Positions 1 to 30,402 of a DNA stretch of 31,632 nucleotides are shown piece after piece; within the stretch, counting starts at the first letter, position 1, and the number at the start of each line of letters is the position of its first letter. Position numbers and translations under genes: made by a program. Origin of the DNA: a virus; the IMG/VR virus record IMGVR_UViG_3300048584_000135, positions 1 to 31,632 of that record, one strand, 5' to 3'. The notes under the pieces are model-generated. The model was given only the letters and a program-made list of their open reading frames with translations, did no database searches and was not told the DNA's origin.

Positions 1-395
1 GGAGCAGACGGCTCTCAAGACCGGCACGTTCCTCGGCGATGGCGCGCGCCTGTGCGGCGGCTTCCTCGGCAGCGGCGCGCTGCTGTTCGGCCAACTCGGC
101 AGCGGCGCTGGCGGCGGCAGCGGCGGCGGCCTGTTCGTCTTCGAGCCGGAAGATGCGCTCCAGCACCTCGCGGTTCACCGCATTGAGGCCTTCGAGCTCC
201 CGGCGGCGCAGCTCGGCGGTGTCGCCCTGCAGCTGGAGCAGACGGCTCTCAAGACCGGCACGTTCCTCGGCGATGGCGCGCGCCTGTGCGGCGGCTTCCT
301 CGGCAGCGGCGCGCTGCTGTTCGGCCAACTCGGCAGCGGCGCTGGCGGCGGCAGCGGCGGCTGCCTGTTCGTCTTCCAGCCGGAAGACACGCTCC
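1..395 (-). repeat. In-frame 234-bp tandem repeat inside the tape measure gene
   Basis: Positions 1-161 and 235-395 are nearly identical. The first 127 bp are the same base for base, with about four substitutions in the rest. The period is 234 bp, exactly 78 codons, so the tape-measure frame is kept. The repeated protein is coiled coil, with blocks such as RLEDEQ, AELAEQQRAAAEEAA and AEERAGLESRLLQLQGD. The spacer between copies (162-234) also resembles the sequence following the second copy at protein level. The first copy touches the window edge, so more copies may exist outside. Near identity points to a recent duplication. Confidence 0.9.
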
Positions 396-3300
396 TGCAT
401 CCAGCGCACGCTTTCCGGCAGGGCTTCAAGCTCATTGGCGCGGCGCGCGGCGAGTGCGGCCGTCGGATCAATCAAGGCGAGGATCTGCAGTTCCAGACTG
501 CGCTTGGTGCGGCCCAGCGCCTCTGCCTCGCGCGCCGCAGCTGCTTCGGCCGCTGCCAGCTCGCGCTGGGCCACTGCCGCATCCTGCGCATCGAACACCT
601 GCTGCTTGATCGCTCGGTTGGTCGCATCGAGCGCGGCCAGCTGATCAGCCCGCTTTGCCGCCAGCGCTCCCTCGGCATCGCCCAGCGCATCCATCAGCTC
701 GATCTCGATCGCGCGCCGTTCCTTGGCGATCGCGGCGATATTCGAGGCGGTCGGCGCGGACGCGGCGGTGCCGTTCAATTCTTCAAGGTACTCGTTGACC
801 TTGGCAAAGGCCGGGGCCACCGCCAGCAGCTGAGCGAACAGTTCCTGCCCGGCCGAGGTGCTGAGATCGAGGCCCTGGACCAGCGCCTTGAACTCATCGT
901 TGGTGTCGACGCTGGCATAACCCAGCCGGGCCATCTCGGCCGCCACCGCCTCGATGACCGGCTGCATCCGTTCGGCTTCGCTGAGGAAGGCGTCTGAGAA
1001 GGCACTTACGGCATCCTGAAAGGCGTCTAAATCGCCGAACTGGCCGACCAGCGCTTCGCTGCCGGCGGCACGTTCATTGATGCCAAGGCCGGCAAAGGGA
1101 TCGGCCATGTTGATCGACCGCAGCGAGGTGGAGACCGTGCTCATGCTGCGCGTCAACCGGGCCAGCGTCTCGAACAGGCCTTCGCCTGCCTTCTGGAATT
1201 CAGTGATGTTGAAGCCCGCCGCCGTGAACGCCCCTTGTGTGATCGCATCGGCAACGCTGCCGAAATAGGCGATCAGAGCGCTCTCGATCTCCTCGCCCGA
1301 CATGCCGAGGAAGGACAGCTTGGCGCCGGGGATGACAATGCCGGCGAGGTATTGTTCAACATCGATACCCAGCTGCCGACCAAACGCCAGTACGCCATCG
1401 GTGACGTCCTCGATGATGAGGTCAAACTGGCGCAGGATCTCGTCGGGTGCGCCGCCTTTGGTGGTCTGGTAGCTGGTCTTGGTGCCGCCGCCGATGCCAA
1501 GGAAGCCGCTCTTCTTCTTCACCTGCTCGACGATGGTGTAGACCTGCGCATCGACGCCGCGCATCAGCAGATCACCCACCGTAGCCTGGAAGGTCTCGAG
1601 CCCCTGATCGTAGACGGTGCGGGTGGTGCTCGACCCGAACAGACCGAGGAAGCCCGAGCTGCCTGTCTGGCCAAGGTTGAAGGTCGAGGTGTCGAAGCTG
1701 CCGCCGGCGACGTTGATCTGCCGCGCCACCGCCGCGGTCAGCCCGCCGATGCCAGCCTCGATCGCGCGTAGGTACTGCACCGCCTCGTTCGAGAATTCGA
1801 GATCACGGTTGCTGTTCTCAGCCATGATGTCGAGCGCGCGGGTGATGCTTTCCGATTGCGCCGAGTTGTCGCCCAACACGGTGCCGGTGCCGATCGCGGC
1901 TTGGGTGTCCTCGGCGCTCGCGGGCACAGGGGCCGATCCGCCACCGCCTGACAGGCCCTTGACACCCAGCCCGGCCAGCAGCGCCACCATCGCGGCAACG
2001 ACGGGAAAGCCCCATGCGCCGAGCTGGCTGAAGATCTTCGACGCGCCGGACGCGCCATCGGCCGTAGCGCGGGTCGCGCTGTTGGCGACGGCACTCGCGG
2101 TCTGCTGGGTGTCGGACGTGATCGCCTGGATCGTGTTGAACAGCTGCAGAGCTGCGTGGGCTTTCTCGATCGCGCCCATAATCTTGTAGCCGGTTGAATG
2201 CTCCTTGAAGAGCGACTTGAACCCGCCAAGCATTGATGCCGTGTTCTTGGCTCGCAGCGACGCCAGCTCGTTTTCGGCAGATAGCTGGGTACGCGTACCG
2301 CGCTTGACCTGGTCGGCAAGGTCGGCCTGCGCGGCGTTGTAATCGGTCATCTGTGCCAGCGCATCGCCGATCACGCTGCCGATGCCGCCGAAGGCATTGG
2401 CGAAGATATCGCCGATGGTCGCGGCGCGGTCGGCGATCGCATCGAGATTGTCGAGCATCGCCTGGGTCGATTCCTGCTGCGCGAGCAAGGCATCCTCGTT
2501 GGCGGCAGCGCCGGTCTCGGCGGCATTGATCTCGTCGAGAACAGTGAGCAGGCGGCCATAGGCGGCGGCAAGTTCGGTAAGACCGTTCGCTTCAGCTTCG
2601 GCCTGCGCGACGGCGAGCTGCCCGCGCACTTCGGCTACGCCGCGAAGCCGGTCTTCCTCCTCAAGCTGGAGCAGCAGGGCCTCCCGCGCAGTCTCGGTCA
2701 ACCCAGAAAGCTCCAGCTCACGCTCGGCCAGCGCGAGCCGGGCGCGCAGCTTCTCGTTGAGCTTGTCGAACGCGTCCATCTGATCGACGACTGCGCTGAT
2801 GTCAGCGAAGGCATCGGCAAAGCTCTCGGCGGTTTCCTTGGCAGCAGTCTGCCCGGCGGCGCGCCCCATCGTCTCGCCAACCTTGTCGCCGGCCTTCTTT
2901 GCATTCTCCTGAAGCTGCCGCTTCTCGGCCGCACCGGTGATCGCTGCGCCGAACTCGCCAACATAGTCTTGTGAGAAGCTGGAACTGATGGCCTTGGCCC
3001 CGGCGGTGCCGAGCTTGCCCATCGCGCCTGCATAGGGATTGTTCAGCCGCTCGATGCCGCCCAACACCACGGCCGGAATGTCAGTGCCAAACACCGTATT
3101 AAAAGCGCCGGTCAGGCTGTTGAGCGGGGTGGCCGCCGCATCGAGTAGTGCGTTGAGGGCATCGATCGCAAGGTTGACGCCGCTGTAAAAGGCATCGCCG
3201 ATCGCCGGGCCGATCATGCCATAGGTTGCTGCGATGGTCCGGGGCACCACCACCACCGCGCCGATGATGAAGTTCGCCGCCTGCTTGCTCTTTTCAACGA

Positions 3301-4513
3301 TCCAGTCCCAGACCGCGCCAACATCCACACCCATCGCTTCGAAGGCTGCCGTCAGCTGGCTCTGCACCGCTGCGCTGATCACGTCATAGGCACCCAGCAG
3401 TACATTCTGCCAGCTGACAGAGACATCGGTGTTCTTGTTCACCTCGGCAGTCAGCAGCCCCACGCCGATCGCGACGGCCCCTAGCGCCGCGCCGGCGACG
3501 AGGCCGACAACGCCCAACCGCGCAAGGCTGGTGGTCTGGGCAGCGCCCGCCGCCGAGGATGCGGCCGCAGCCTCAGCCTGGGCAGTCGCCAGCGCAGCGG
3601 ATGCAGCCGTGGCCTCAGCCGAAGCCGTCGCCGCCGCGGAGGTCGCAAGCGCCAGGCGGGCCTGCGCAGCGGCGCTTTGCGATGCTGTGGCGGCGTTCTC
3701 CAGCGCGGCCCTGGCAAGGGCAACCTCCGCCCGGGCTGCAATGCCATCGGCTTCGGCGCGGGCCAGCGCCGCCGCGATGGCCGCCTGGTTGGCCGCGGCT
3801 GCGCGGGCGGCAGCATCCAGACTAGCATTGCCTGACACGCGGATGATGCCGGTCGCCACTGCGATTTCGCGTGCAAAGGCCCTGACACCGAGGCCCGCCT
3901 GTCCCATGACCCCGTAGATCTGGGAGCCCTGCTGCACCAGCGCGATCAACGGATTGCCGCCGGACGCCAATTGCACGCCGAGATCCTGCACCTGGAATGT
4001 GAGATTGAGCAGTTCGCTGGCTGAAAGCTTGCTGGACCCGGCCATGTCTTCGAGACCCGCGGCGGACTGTGCCGCGCCCGCATTGATGCCACCAAGCGAT
4101 CCGGACGCCGCGGCTGCCGCGGCGCCGATCGCGGTCAGGTTATCATTGGCCGGTCGCATGCCACGCTGTACCGCCTCGTTGTAAGCGGCGGTGGTCTTCT
4201 GGAGCGCGGTTACGTTGTTGCGATGCTCCGCCTCGACAAGGCTCAGCGCGGTCTTGGTCTCCAAGATCTCGCGGTTGTATTGTTCGAGGCTGATCTGCCC
4301 GGCGTTGAGGGCAGCCTTCGACTCGTTGATCTCGGCCGATGCCTCGGCCTGGATCTTCGCCAGCTTCCCGATCGAGGCATCGGCGCGCTGATAGGCAGCG
4401 GCCATTGCCGCAGCCTCGTCCTGCGCAGCCGACATGGCCCGGTCCGCATTCTCCAGCGCATCGACCGCGCCGCTTGAATCGCCAGTAATGACAAGGCCGG
4501 TGCGCAGCGTCAC
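1..4513 (-). CDS. Tail tape measure protein, 3' end outside window (lambda gpH / TMP_N type)
   Basis: A single open frame reads from a GTG at 4513 to the window edge, giving at least 1504 residues, so the protein is incomplete here. It sets tail length and is threaded inside the tail tube. Residues about 170-210 (LTFQVQDLGVQLASGG, then NPLIALVQQGSQIYGVMGQ) match the N-terminal tape-measure domain of lambda-like siphophages. An Ala/Gln/Glu-rich coiled coil follows (about 215-325), then a hydrophobic segment (about 333-354). A second hydrophobic stretch, GFPVVAAMVALLAGLG, lies in the middle, and long coiled coils continue to the window edge. The start is 10 nt after the stop of the GT frame, with GAGGG as a plausible ribosome site. 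The position after G/GT and the tail tube is the normal tape-measure place. Minus-strand coding in other frames was ignored. Confidence 0.93.
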   Translation of the reverse strand, partial: MTLRTGLVITGDSSGAVDALENADRAMSAAQDEAAAMAAAYQRADASIGKLAKIQAEASAEINESKAALNAGQISLEQYNREILETKTALSLVEAEHRNNVTALQKTTAAYNEAVQRGMRPANDNLTAIGAAAAAASGSLGGINAGAAQSAAGLEDMAGSSKLSASELLNLTFQVQDLGVQLASGGNPLIALVQQGSQIYGVMGQAGLGVRAFAREIAVATGIIRVSGNASLDAAARAAAANQAAIAAALARAEADGIAARAEVALARAALENAATASQSAAAQARLALATSAAATASAEATAASAALATAQAEAAAASSAAGAAQTTSLARLGVVGLVAGAALGAVAIGVGLLTAEVNKNTDVSVSWQNVLLGAYDVISAAVQSQLTAAFEAMGVDVGAVWDWIVEKSKQAANFIIGAVVVVPRTIAATYGMIGPAIGDAFYSGVNLAIDALNALLDAAATPLNSLTGAFNTVFGTDIPAVVLGGIERLNNPYAGAMGKLGTAGAKAISSSFSQDYVGEFGAAITGAAEKRQLQENAKKAGDKVGETMGRAAGQTAAKETAESFADAFADISAVVDQMDAFDKLNEKLRARLALAERELELSGLTETAREALLLQLEEEDRLRGVAEVRGQLAVAQAEAEANGLTELAAAYGRLLTVLDEINAAETGAAANEDALLAQQESTQAMLDNLDAIADRAATIGDIFANAFGGIGSVIGDALAQMTDYNAAQADLADQVKRGTRTQLSAENELASLRAKNTASMLGGFKSLFKEHSTGYKIMGAIEKAHAALQLFNTIQAITSDTQQTASAVANSATRATADGASGASKIFSQLGAWGFPVVAAMVALLAGLGVKGLSGGGGSAPVPASAEDTQAAIGTGTVLGDNSAQSESITRALDIMAENSNRDLEFSNEAVQYLRAIEAGIGGLTAAVARQINVAGGSFDTSTFNLGQTGSSGFLGLFGSSTTRTVYDQGLETFQATVGDLLMRGVDAQVYTIVEQVKKKSGFLGIGGGTKTSYQTTKGGAPDEILRQFDLIIEDVTDGVLAFGRQLGIDVEQYLAGIVIPGAKLSFLGMSGEEIESALIAYFGSVADAITQGAFTAAGFNITEFQKAGEGLFETLARLTRSMSTVSTSLRSINMADPFAGLGINERAAGSEALVGQFGDLDAFQDAVSAFSDAFLSEAERMQPVIEAVAAEMARLGYASVDTNDEFKALVQGLDLSTSAGQELFAQLLAVAPAFAKVNEYLEELNGTAASAPTASNIAAIAKERRAIEIELMDALGDAEGALAAKRADQLAALDATNRAIKQQVFDAQDAAVAQRELAAAEAAAAREAEALGRTKRSLELQILALIDPTAALAARRANELEALPESVRWMQERVFRLEDEQAAAAAAASAAAELAEQQRAAAEEAAAQARAIAEERAGLESRLLQLQGDTAELRRRELEGLNAVNREVLERIFRLEDEQAAAAAAASAAAELAEQQRAAAEEAAAQARAIAEERAGLESRLL

Positions 4514-4523
4514 GAGGCTGCCC

Positions 4524-4886
4524 TCAGCTGTTTGTCGAATTCAGCTCGGCGCGGGCGGCGACTTCCATGATCTGCAAGCCCTGCCAGGTTGCCTCGCTCA
4601 TGGCAGGAAACCGGGCGCGTACCGCCGCATAGTCCAGCCCCAGCCAATGCAGCCGCACGCTTGACATGGTTGCCATGCAGACGGCGTTCCATTGGGTGGC
4701 GACAGCCAGGAAAGCTACAACGATGTCCCAATTTTCCGGCCATACGATGAAGTCTTCCTCAACTGCCTCCTGACAGGCGGTCAGGATATCCTCAGACGCG
4801 CCCCAGAATTTCAGATCGTCGGCGAACTGATCATCCCCGACACTGGGCTGGCGCGCGCCAGCCCAGTGTCGGGCCGCCGCCTCTAG
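4524..4886 (-). CDS. T part of GT tail assembly chaperone (DUF1799-like), reached by -1 frameshift
   Basis: This frame has no usable start codon of its own. It is read only if ribosomes slip -1 at the end of the upstream G gene. It adds 120 residues after the slip, giving a GT fusion of about 232 residues. The block WPENWDIVVAFLAVATQW followed by LGLDYAAV is the signature of the DUF1799 family, which occupies the second chaperone position in Mu-like and lambda-like tails. The GT protein is expected to bind the tape measure and recruit tube subunits, as lambda gpGT does. The ATG at 4837 opens another frame that stops after seven codons, so it cannot start this protein. The tape measure starts 10 nt downstream. 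Confidence 0.88.
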   Translation of the reverse strand, partial: LEAAARHWAGARQPSVGDDQFADDLKFWGASEDILTACQEAVEEDFIVWPENWDIVVAFLAVATQWNAVCMATMSSVRLHWLGLDYAAVRARFPAMSEATWQGLQIMEVAARAELNSTNS

Positions 4887-4892
4887 TTTCCC
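4836..4892 (-). other. Programmed -1 frameshift signal: slippery GGGAAAC plus 38-nt perfect palindrome
   Basis: Read on the minus strand, the G gene ends G GGA AAC TAG, so the heptamer GGGAAAC (4886-4892) is in the X XXY YYZ phase needed for tandem -1 slippage, directly before the stop. Twelve nt downstream is a perfect inverted repeat at 4836-4873. Its arm on the plus strand is CCCGACACTGGGCTGGCGC, followed at once by its complement. In RNA this would form a stem of about 17 bp with a GCGC loop. The shifted frame is open for 120 codons and encodes a recognisable tail chaperone domain. Together these make a complete recoding cassette. A terminator role is unlikely because the tape measure must be transcribed through it and no U-run follows. 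Confidence 0.9.
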
Positions 4893-5221
4893 TTCCGGCC
4901 CCCTTTGCCGATGCTGTCGAAATAGGCGCGGATCAGCGCGATGCGCGCTGGCGGATCAAGGATCACCTGGTCGCGGACGTCGTCGTTATAGGCGATCGGG
5001 TTATTGCTATCGTCGACCAGCTCGAACAACTCCACGATCACGGCGCGCAAGAAGTCCGTGGTGCCTTCAGTCGCACTGAGGTTGTAGTTTTCCAGCTGGT
5101 CGGAGTTGAGCACGCGGAAGCGGGCCTTGAACCGCTCCTCGCGGGTGCCGCCGTCGACCGGCACATTGGCGGTGACCCGCGCCGTGAATTGGCGCTCGCT
5201 GTTCGATACCTTGAAACCCAT
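4883..5221 (-). CDS. Tail assembly chaperone G
   Basis: This encodes 112 residues starting ATG at 5221, with GGAG upstream. The sequence is acidic and charged (for example LRAVIVELFELVDDSNNPI and ILDPPARIALIRAYFDSIG) and ends GKGGRKGN. It lies between the tail tube and the tape measure, the conserved place of the lambda G / Mu gp41-type chaperone. The last codons form the slippery site, so most ribosomes should stop here to make G and a minority should continue as GT. I assign function mainly from position, the frameshift architecture and the DUF1799-like extension. The G portion alone has no motif I can name with certainty. Confidence 0.85.
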   Translation of the reverse strand: MGFKVSNSERQFTARVTANVPVDGGTREERFKARFRVLNSDQLENYNLSATEGTTDFLRAVIVELFELVDDSNNPIAYNDDVRDQVILDPPARIALIRAYFDSIGKGGRKGN

Positions 5222-5277: not shown

Positions 5278-6204
5278 TTAGGAAAGTGTGATCTTGAAGC
5301 CGTCGTCGCCCTCATCGGGCAGCGGGTCGAAGGTCAGCGGCCATTCGATGATGTTCTGCTGATTGGCGTATCCGGGCCGGCGCTGCTTGGCCCGGTCGAT
5401 ATCGATCTTCACCCGCGTCGCGGCGCTGGTACCGTGGATCAACTGGATCGCCACCGGGGCACCTGCCGGCGCAGTGTAGGGGTTGTAGGTGGCCAGCGCG
5501 ACCGCCTCGACCTGACAGCTCACGCTCTCGACCGCGTCGACGATCTCGATGCCTTCATAGTTGACCATGAACCGGCGCTCGACCTGCGCGCCCCGGGTCA
5601 GTTCAAAGCTGCGCATACGCATCGGGGTTCCGCCGATGGTGAAGGTCGGCGTGTTTGCCTTAGTCACCGCCTGCGGCGTCTGGAAGGCGGTCAGATCGAC
5701 GGTCGGCAGAGCCGTTGACGTCGGCTGCACGAACAGGCCGGTGAAGGTGTAGCGCCACACCGGGATGCCTTGAGCGTTCATGGTGCCGACAAAGGTGCCG
5801 CGCACGCCCAGCAGCTTGTGCAGGGTGCCGTCGATGTTGATGTAGATCGTGCCCGATTCCAGCGCGCTGCTGATCGGATCGTACTCGACCGATGTGGTGG
5901 CCGTGATCGTCTCGGCCATGGCGCACATGCGGTGCAGCACGCCCCATGCCGGGGGAACGCCCAGTTCGCCCGAACCGACCATCTCGACGTCGAAGGTCAG
6001 CGTCGCATAGACGCCGACCACGATCATCTCCTGGCCGCCGAAATAAGGGCGTTCCAGATTGCGAGACAGGTCTTCGCCTTCCATCGGGTTGAGCGTGACG
6101 TTGGTCGCCTGGATCGCGTCGGCCGACCCGGTAGGGGTCGGATCGGTACCGTAGGTGGTCTCGATCTTGGCGAGGATCGCCTTCTTTTTCCAGTTCATGG
6201 CCAT
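5278..6204 (-). CDS. Tail tube (major tail) protein, Phage_tube_2-like
   Basis: This encodes 308 residues. It begins MAMNWKKKAILAKIETTYG, a typical opening of siphophage tube proteins with the pattern 'KxxxLAKxExTYGTDPTPT'. The middle is beta-rich, with repeated short hydrophobic strands. The C-terminus has EWPLTFDPLPDEGDDGFKITL, and the block GTYNPYTAP-like at about residue 240 is also common in this group. Two ATGs lie 6 nt apart (6204 and 6198); GGAG upstream could serve either. It would form the inner tube of a non-contractile tail. No sheath gene precedes it, unlike in phage Mu, where sheath L comes before tube M. Confidence 0.85.
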   Translation of the reverse strand: MAMNWKKKAILAKIETTYGTDPTPTGSADAIQATNVTLNPMEGEDLSRNLERPYFGGQEMIVVGVYATLTFDVEMVGSGELGVPPAWGVLHRMCAMAETITATTSVEYDPISSALESGTIYINIDGTLHKLLGVRGTFVGTMNAQGIPVWRYTFTGLFVQPTSTALPTVDLTAFQTPQAVTKANTPTFTIGGTPMRMRSFELTRGAQVERRFMVNYEGIEIVDAVESVSCQVEAVALATYNPYTAPAGAPVAIQLIHGTSAATRVKIDIDRAKQRRPGYANQQNIIEWPLTFDPLPDEGDDGFKITLS

Positions 6205-29633: not shown

Positions 29634-29695
29634 TCCGAATTCGTATCCGAACTTATTCGGACTGTAAACCGGATTTATTCGGATACGGGTTCGGA
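29634..29695. promoter_or_regulatory. Operator array between repressor and ner-like genes
   Basis: Five half-sites of one motif: TCCGAA at 29634 and 29646, TTCGGA at 29656, 29678 and 29690. The 18-bp arm TCCGAATTCGTATCCGAA (29634-29651) reappears inverted at 29678-29695 with 16 of 18 matches. The 29646/29656 pair makes a tight palindrome TCCGAA-CTTA-TTCGGA. The array fills the 86-bp gap and is symmetric around about 29664. It is the natural operator for the repressor and the Ner-like protein, controlling both divergent promoters. I could not assign -35/-10 boxes with confidence. Confidence 0.82.
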
Positions 29696-29718: not shown

Positions 29719-30402
29719 ATGTCAGGTGTAGGGAAAGACGCCGCGCTCATTAACGCGCTGGTCGATTACGCGGGTGCGACCCTCACCGAGGTGGCGCGCC
29801 GGGCGAAAGTCGATCCTGAGACGCTGCGAAAGCCGACAAAGGGCATCACAGATTATCGCCTCAGCCAAAGAACGCTCGAAAAGCTGCAGGCGGCGTATCC
29901 GAATTTCCCCGATTGGCCGAAGCCCGCCCACAACGACAGGCGGCCGGCATTCCATCACGACAACCCTTCGTCGACCGCCTGGGCCACTGAGGGCGACACC
30001 GTCGAGCTGGAGCAGATCGACCTGCGCTATGGCATGGGCGGCACTTTCGCCGATGGCCCAGTCGAGGTTGAGCGTCGCCCCTTCTCGCGCGAATGGTTGC
30101 GCTCGATCACCACGACCGCACCGCGCCACCTTTTCTGGGCGATCGGCGATGGGGACAGCATGGAGCCGACCATCCGCAGCGGCGAGATCATCCTGATCGA
30201 CCGCTCCCAGGACACCCCGCGCATGGACGACGGGATCTGGGCCGTTACCCATGGCGAGATCGGCATGATCAAGCGGCTGCGCCACCTGCCCGATGGCACT
30301 GTCGAGTTGCACAGCGATAACCAGTTCGTGCGCCCGCAGACCGCAGTCGATGGTGAGCTTCATGTGATTGGCAGGGTGATCGCGGTGGTTCGACGTCTCT
30401 GA
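29719..30402 (+). CDS. c: Phage repressor, helix-turn-helix with S24 peptidase domain
   Basis: This encodes 227 residues. N-terminal helix-turn-helix: LTEVARRAKVDPETLRKPTK (residues 22-41). The S24 domain has GDGDSMEPTIRSGEIILID with catalytic Ser147, and Lys185 in GMIKRLRHL. It represses lytic genes, including ner and the transposase operon. A canonical Ala-Gly or Cys-Gly cleavage site is not visible; the linker has RYGMGGTFADG instead, so self-cleavage on RecA activation is not assured. It reads away from the early operon and continues, after 11 bp, into two secreted-protein genes, which makes it the first gene of a lysogeny operon. Confidence 0.92.
   Translation: MSGVGKDAALINALVDYAGATLTEVARRAKVDPETLRKPTKGITDYRLSQRTLEKLQAAYPNFPDWPKPAHNDRRPAFHHDNPSSTAWATEGDTVELEQIDLRYGMGGTFADGPVEVERRPFSREWLRSITTTAPRHLFWAIGDGDSMEPTIRSGEIILIDRSQDTPRMDDGIWAVTHGEIGMIKRLRHLPDGTVELHSDNQFVRPQTAVDGELHVIGRVIAVVRRL

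Follow-up and report, generated by a model that had tools for sequence, protein, structure and literature searches.

The DNA analysed here (the window, taken at its full length of 31.6 kb) is an IMG/VR virus record from a Mu-like phage; it encodes a Mu-type transposase (PF02914), and a Mu-like gpT head protein and Mu gp36 were also matched in it. Among cellular sequences, its nearest relative is a prophage in Erythrobacter ramosus JCM 10282, with a T protein that is 94% identical. The genes for the tail tube, G, T and the tape measure follow one another in this order (Table 1), which is the usual one for G/G-T chaperones. The reading frame at the end of the series begins with a GTG located 10 nt past the T stop, and its length, composition and position point to a tape measure protein. 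Within this gene, at the end of the contig (positions 1-406), there is a 172-nt direct repeat, 95% identical and with a spacing of 234 nt; as this repeat is located where the contig ends, assembly may have broken the contig there. Elsewhere in the window, a 27-nt imperfect inverted repeat with an 8-nt gap (29634-29695) lies just upstream of a plus-strand repressor-like ORF at 29719, and could possibly be an operator.

Table 1. Features of the G/T region and of the flanking tail genes; positions are those of the window.
Feature	Position	Strand	Description
Tail tube protein (Phage_tube_2)	5278..6204	-	Upstream of G; PF18906 3.8e-13
G, putative short tail assembly chaperone	4883..5221	-	112 aa, ATG to TAG; PHROG 569 (tail) 5.9e-9
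Putative slippery heptamer G_GGA_AAC	4886..4892	-	Last two sense codons of G; in the 0-frame register for tandem -1 slippage
0-frame stop TAG	4883..4885	-	Directly 3' of the heptamer; forms the first 3 nt of the spacer; shares bases with the T-frame Leu codon CTA
12-nt spacer TAGAGGCGGCGG	4874..4885	-	Between heptamer and palindrome
T domain, -1 frame	4524..4886	-	120 codons + TGA; DUF1799; PHROG 680, 8.4e-14
Perfect 38-nt palindrome	4836..4873	-	Predicted RNA hairpin; also encodes part of T just past the junction
Candidate outer-helix 3' strand TCGCCG	4820..4825	-	Would pair with spacer 4874-4879 (CGGCGG); minimum-free-energy fold alone
Putative tape measure protein	2..4513	-	1504 aa or more; cut off by the contig end

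The 3' end of G reads ...AAG GGA AAC TAG, and thus holds in the 0 frame a heptamer of the form X_XXY_YYZ, close to the end of a gene beyond which the -1 frame stays open. GGGAAAC is present once in the window, where around 2.6 copies would be expected, so that the heptamer by itself is not significant. The T frame is open from 4955 down to the TGA at 4524-4526, and its first ATG, GTG or TTG is codon 72 counted from the heptamer, which already lies within the conserved domain. This domain matches Pfam PF08809 (DUF1799) with 33.6 bits (E 4.7e-8), above the curated cut-off of 26 bits. An earlier sequence-only reading of the locus had described an in-phase GGGAAAC with a TAG immediately behind it, a 12-nt spacer leading to a perfect 38-nt palindrome, and a 120-codon -1 frame of the DUF1799 type with no start codon of its own, all of which proved correct to the base. 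Coding constraint is observed in both frames. Relatives of G show 81% and 77% identity, and when G was compared with two close relatives, 31 of 54 and 36 of 63 differences were at third positions of the 0 frame, the corresponding values for T in the -1 frame being 26 of 42 and 18 of 22. Since the differences are mostly at third codon positions, the 0 frame of G and the -1 frame of T both look translated. T is very probably produced solely as a G-T fusion, with a predicted junction ...RKGN-LEAAAR...

No other perfect palindrome in the 31.6-kb window exceeds 18 nt; the expected number for the one of 38 nt is 5.8e-7. The description of its arms as 19 bp with zero loop holds for the DNA, while the RNA would form 17 bp and a 4-nt loop. 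The 100-nt junction segment has a folding energy of -52.4 kcal/mol (z -3.99), equalled by none of 200 shuffles, and is more stable than 100 out of 100 recodings that preserve the protein (z -3.4), which places the structure just 3' of the heptamer beyond chance; a search of Rfam gave no family at the gathering score. Within the 65 non-redundant relatives, no junction folds at a lower energy than that of the window, which also has the strongest hairpin, although hairpins of this length are limited to a small clade of sphingomonad phages. The distance between heptamer and perfect hairpin is 12 nt, but formation of the predicted outer helix would leave 6 nt between heptamer and structure, a possibility suggested by the minimum-free-energy fold; the pairing columns of this helix are nearly invariant.

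Relatives were collected in two ways. Searches with the T profile, together with phage records, gave 101 loci with a recognised site, of which 65 non-redundant relatives were left when redundancy among T proteins was removed at 90% and above. An in-register heptamer was found in 65 of 65 (AAAAAAC in 43, GGGAAAC in 21 and GGGAAAT in one), and the G stop directly adjoined it in all but one (TAG in 25, TAA in 22, TGA in 17). Five further loci, outside the 101, had been missed by the site-finding script and were checked by eye: four have the heptamer, with an adjacent stop in L086 and L102 and a stop one codon further in L099 and L101, while L073 is truncated. To remove the bias introduced by our own query, a second set was built with the Pfam DUF1799 model in 399 Pseudomonadota genomes. 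Its 30 loci, which include a few near-duplicates and share E. ramosus with the first set, all carry in-register heptamers (20 AAAAAAC, nine GGGAAAC and one AAAAAAG), followed by an adjacent stop in 25. The heptamer is therefore kept in every intact relative. In some DUF1799-type loci (L118, L168, L140, L156, L158 and L167) the 0-frame stop is located 9-105 nt away; these natural exceptions could be useful for asking whether an adjacent stop matters.

The conservation of the heptamer that the sequence-only reading had anticipated among homologues is thus present, mostly as GGGAAAC or AAAAAAC, and the stop is conserved in nearly all of them as well. That reading had also regarded a stop codon inside the spacer as a mark of unusual strength, which does not stand: an adjacent stop is the norm. 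Given that the mechanism is known and that a prediction of GGGAAAC followed by a stop already existed for KL1, a phage of Burkholderia, a stop adjoining the heptamer is, as far as sequence comparison goes, a rule for the DUF1799 family and not a peculiarity of this phage.

Selection on the elements of the junction can be seen in codon usage. The Leu codon at the junction is CTA in 47 of the 65 relatives, against 40 of 704 Leu codons elsewhere in T (Fisher 4e-36, uncorrected for relatedness). The bias is maintained in the GC-rich members, with CTA in 14 of 31 junctions versus 5 of 322 Leu codons elsewhere, and where these members use CTG at the junction it is followed by A in 15 of 15 cases, creating a TGA. 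The final C of the heptamer also appears to be favoured by selection, since the CTA:TTA ratio is 47:0 at the junction and 40:38 in the rest of T. Codon choice at the junction thus shows, in these alignments, that both the stop and the final C of the heptamer are selected. With respect to structure, folding of the junction relative to synonymous recoding had a mean z of -1.22 in the first set, compared to about -0.35 elsewhere in T, and the independent set gave -0.93 versus -0.31 (p = 0.005).

The structures themselves differ between groups. Alphaproteobacterial relatives have a 13-bp hairpin that begins 5 nt past the heptamer, one of whose pairs is C-G in four sequences and G-C in four, a covariation score reached by 3 of 500 shuffles. 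In the clade of the window the hairpin begins at 12 nt, one pair is A-U in the window and G-C in relatives, and the 3' arm of two relatives is three bases shorter, with the outer and inner pairing retained; given that only four sequences with one double change are available and that the score is not above column shuffles, covariation in this clade is suggestive but does not amount to proof. The expectation that homologues would have paired arms thus finds support from one pair in the alphaproteobacterial group, and thin support in the clade of the window, and the 12-nt spacer, whose length was correctly given, is longer than the 5 nt preceding the hairpins of those relatives. With RNAalifold, the 44 AAAAAAC relatives yielded just a weak short stem. 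A single conserved structure for the whole family is unsupported, with that stem being weak and the hairpins differing by clade.

These comparative data support the interpretation of the locus as a frameshift cassette, and we consider it highly likely that it encodes a lambda-type G/G-T pair of tail assembly chaperones expressed through -1 ribosomal slippage. We infer that slippage takes place at a rate leaving the fusion in the minority: most ribosomes would translate G and terminate at the TAG right after G_GGA_AAC, while a few, delayed by the RNA hairpin ahead of them and perhaps also by the stop codon, would slip back one base on G_GGA_AAC, to GGG_AAA; for these the TAG would be out of frame, and reading would go on with CTA GAG GCG ... 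through DUF1799 to give G-T. By analogy with lambda, the tape measure protein would be covered by many copies of G and few of G-T, tail tube subunits would be recruited by the T part, and both proteins would leave the finished tail. AlphaFold models of G and T (pLDDT 83) had no match in the PDB with E <= 0.001, and profile searches of PDB sequences returned ribosomal protein bL20 and other chance-level matches for T (E 0.008 and above) and nothing below 0.3 for G. Since the models match no solved structure, gene order and family are the grounds for the proposed chaperone role.

Some further observations count against this explanation. The perfect hairpin starts 12 nt past the heptamer, beyond the 5-9 nt that are usually studied, although spacers of 11-14 nt are known elsewhere (PMC5009743). 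In addition, A_AAA_AAC is far less shift-prone than A_AAA_AAG in Escherichia coli (PMC5009743), and yet it is the commonest heptamer in the DUF1799 family. It is conceivable, though we hold it to be rather unlikely, that the adjacent stop is a functional element of the signal in this family, as a -1 'shifty stop': slippage would take place at least in part while the stop codon occupies the A site and tRNA-Asn, on AAC, the P site, the supply of release factor then tuning the G:G-T ratio. If this were true, the tail ratio of the phage would be sensitive to the termination capacity of the host.

Other explanations of the locus were weighed. T could be an independent gene that has a start codon of its own or relies on reinitiation behind the G stop, with the heptamer being incidental. 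Annotators have in fact listed T separately in RC1, PS-1, vB_ThpS-P1 and VarioGold (PMC9658991), and 15 of the 65 relatives have some ATG, GTG or TTG in the T frame upstream of the heptamer; however, the other 50 have none, T of RC1 is annotated from a CTG, the window offers no such codon before codon 72, and an incidental heptamer is at odds with its retention in every intact relative. The sequence-only reading had counted homologues with a T start of their own as evidence against it; we found no consistent pattern of this kind, and T of RC1, PS-1 and vB_ThpS-P1 lies in each case behind GGGAAAC and a stop. A separate T is for these reasons very improbable. A change of frame caused by RNA polymerase slipping on a run of A, instead of by the ribosome, would fit the six A of the A_AAA_AAC present at the site in most relatives, but the window and a third of the non-redundant relatives have GGGAAAC, with at most three identical bases running, which is too short for polymerase slippage. 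Selection on the adjacent stop and on the downstream structure is also contrary to this explanation, to which we give almost no credence.

The palindrome could still be mainly an element of DNA or transcription (a protein binding site, a terminator or a cruciform) that lies behind a slippery site by chance, as its perfect 38-bp dyad symmetry and its single copy in the contig might suggest. No terminator-like site was found at the palindrome, though, and relatives keep the RNA pairing through a compensatory change; the 3-nt deletion in one arm breaks the symmetry of the DNA but spares the outer and inner pairs, and in other relatives this place is taken by a different hairpin. This makes such a DNA element unlikely, if somewhat less so than a separate T gene. 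We therefore retain ribosomal slippage: on this sequence evidence, a -1 shift very probably gives the phage its tail chaperone in two versions, one long and one short.

The kind of system is well known, being of the lambda G/GT type, and Xu et al. 2004 is reportedly the key survey, in which members of DUF1799 may already be included. What the present comparison contributes is heptamer plus adjacent stop as a rule for DUF1799, with evidence of selection at the codon level, and the observation that the T half is commonly annotated as a stand-alone protein: the records examined list DUF1799 as a stand-alone hypothetical or as a 'tape measure' protein. Since 30 of 30 unselected DUF1799 loci lie behind an in-register slippery heptamer, this 'phage related hypothetical protein' can be read anew as the T portion of a tail chaperone made by frameshifting, and a simple annotation rule follows. 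In RC1 (L103 2827-3171), for example, the RefSeq T is annotated from a CTG directly after GGGAAA, and should, judging from its junction, extend the gene before it through a -1 frameshift. PHROG 569 and 680 are both labelled 'tail length tape measure protein', a label also seen in RefSeq records, probably through wrong transfer from the neighbouring gene. The conserved stop directly behind a heptamer ending in C, a heptamer that in its A-rich form shifts poorly in E. coli, also raises the question of how these sites function in their own hosts.

With respect to known systems, the open literature searched names DUF1799 in one paper, as a separate gene (PMC9658991), and PF08809 in none. Among the cases closest to the window are Rhodobacter phage RC1, Rhodovulum phage RS1 and Thiobacimonas phage vB_ThpS-P1, with homologous T and G by tblastn, and Pseudomonas phage PS-1, with a homologous T and G not among the matches. 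In RC1, vB_ThpS-P1 and PS-1, GGGAAAC and an adjacent stop precede the separately annotated T; identities with the window in this group of phages are 36-39% for G and 31-33% for T, and the frameshift is unannotated in their records. GGGAAAC immediately before a stop has been predicted in KL1 (PMC3483164), where gp18/gp19 differ in having an intervening gene before the tape measure, and are likened to the window by the junction and not by DUF1799 homology. For Caulobacter phages, AAAAAAC has been predicted in phiCbK and GGGAAAC in Colossus, in chaperones preceding the tape measure (PMC3556154); these are, unlike the window, large lytic siphophages. G_GGA_AAC and A_AAA_AAC have been predicted in haloarchaeal viruses (PMC5009743), and 6-7% frameshifting was measured by Antonov et al. 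for HK97-like chaperone genes (PMC3711429). In lambda, for which both the mechanism of G/G-T and the low ratio of its products have been established, G binds the tape measure protein, T binds the tube protein and both are absent from virions (PMC5009743). Lambda and the window share the location between major tail protein and tape measure, the heptamer near the end of G and T in the -1 frame, and are likened by this arrangement and not by sequence similarity; the lambda heptamer, G_GGA_AAG, ends in G and its 0-frame stop is 15 nt past it, whereas that of the window ends in C with the stop adjacent. Mu, with which the window shares Mu-like head genes and the transposase, has gp41/gp42 in the same tail-assembly role, but reached through a -2 frameshift (PMC5009743).
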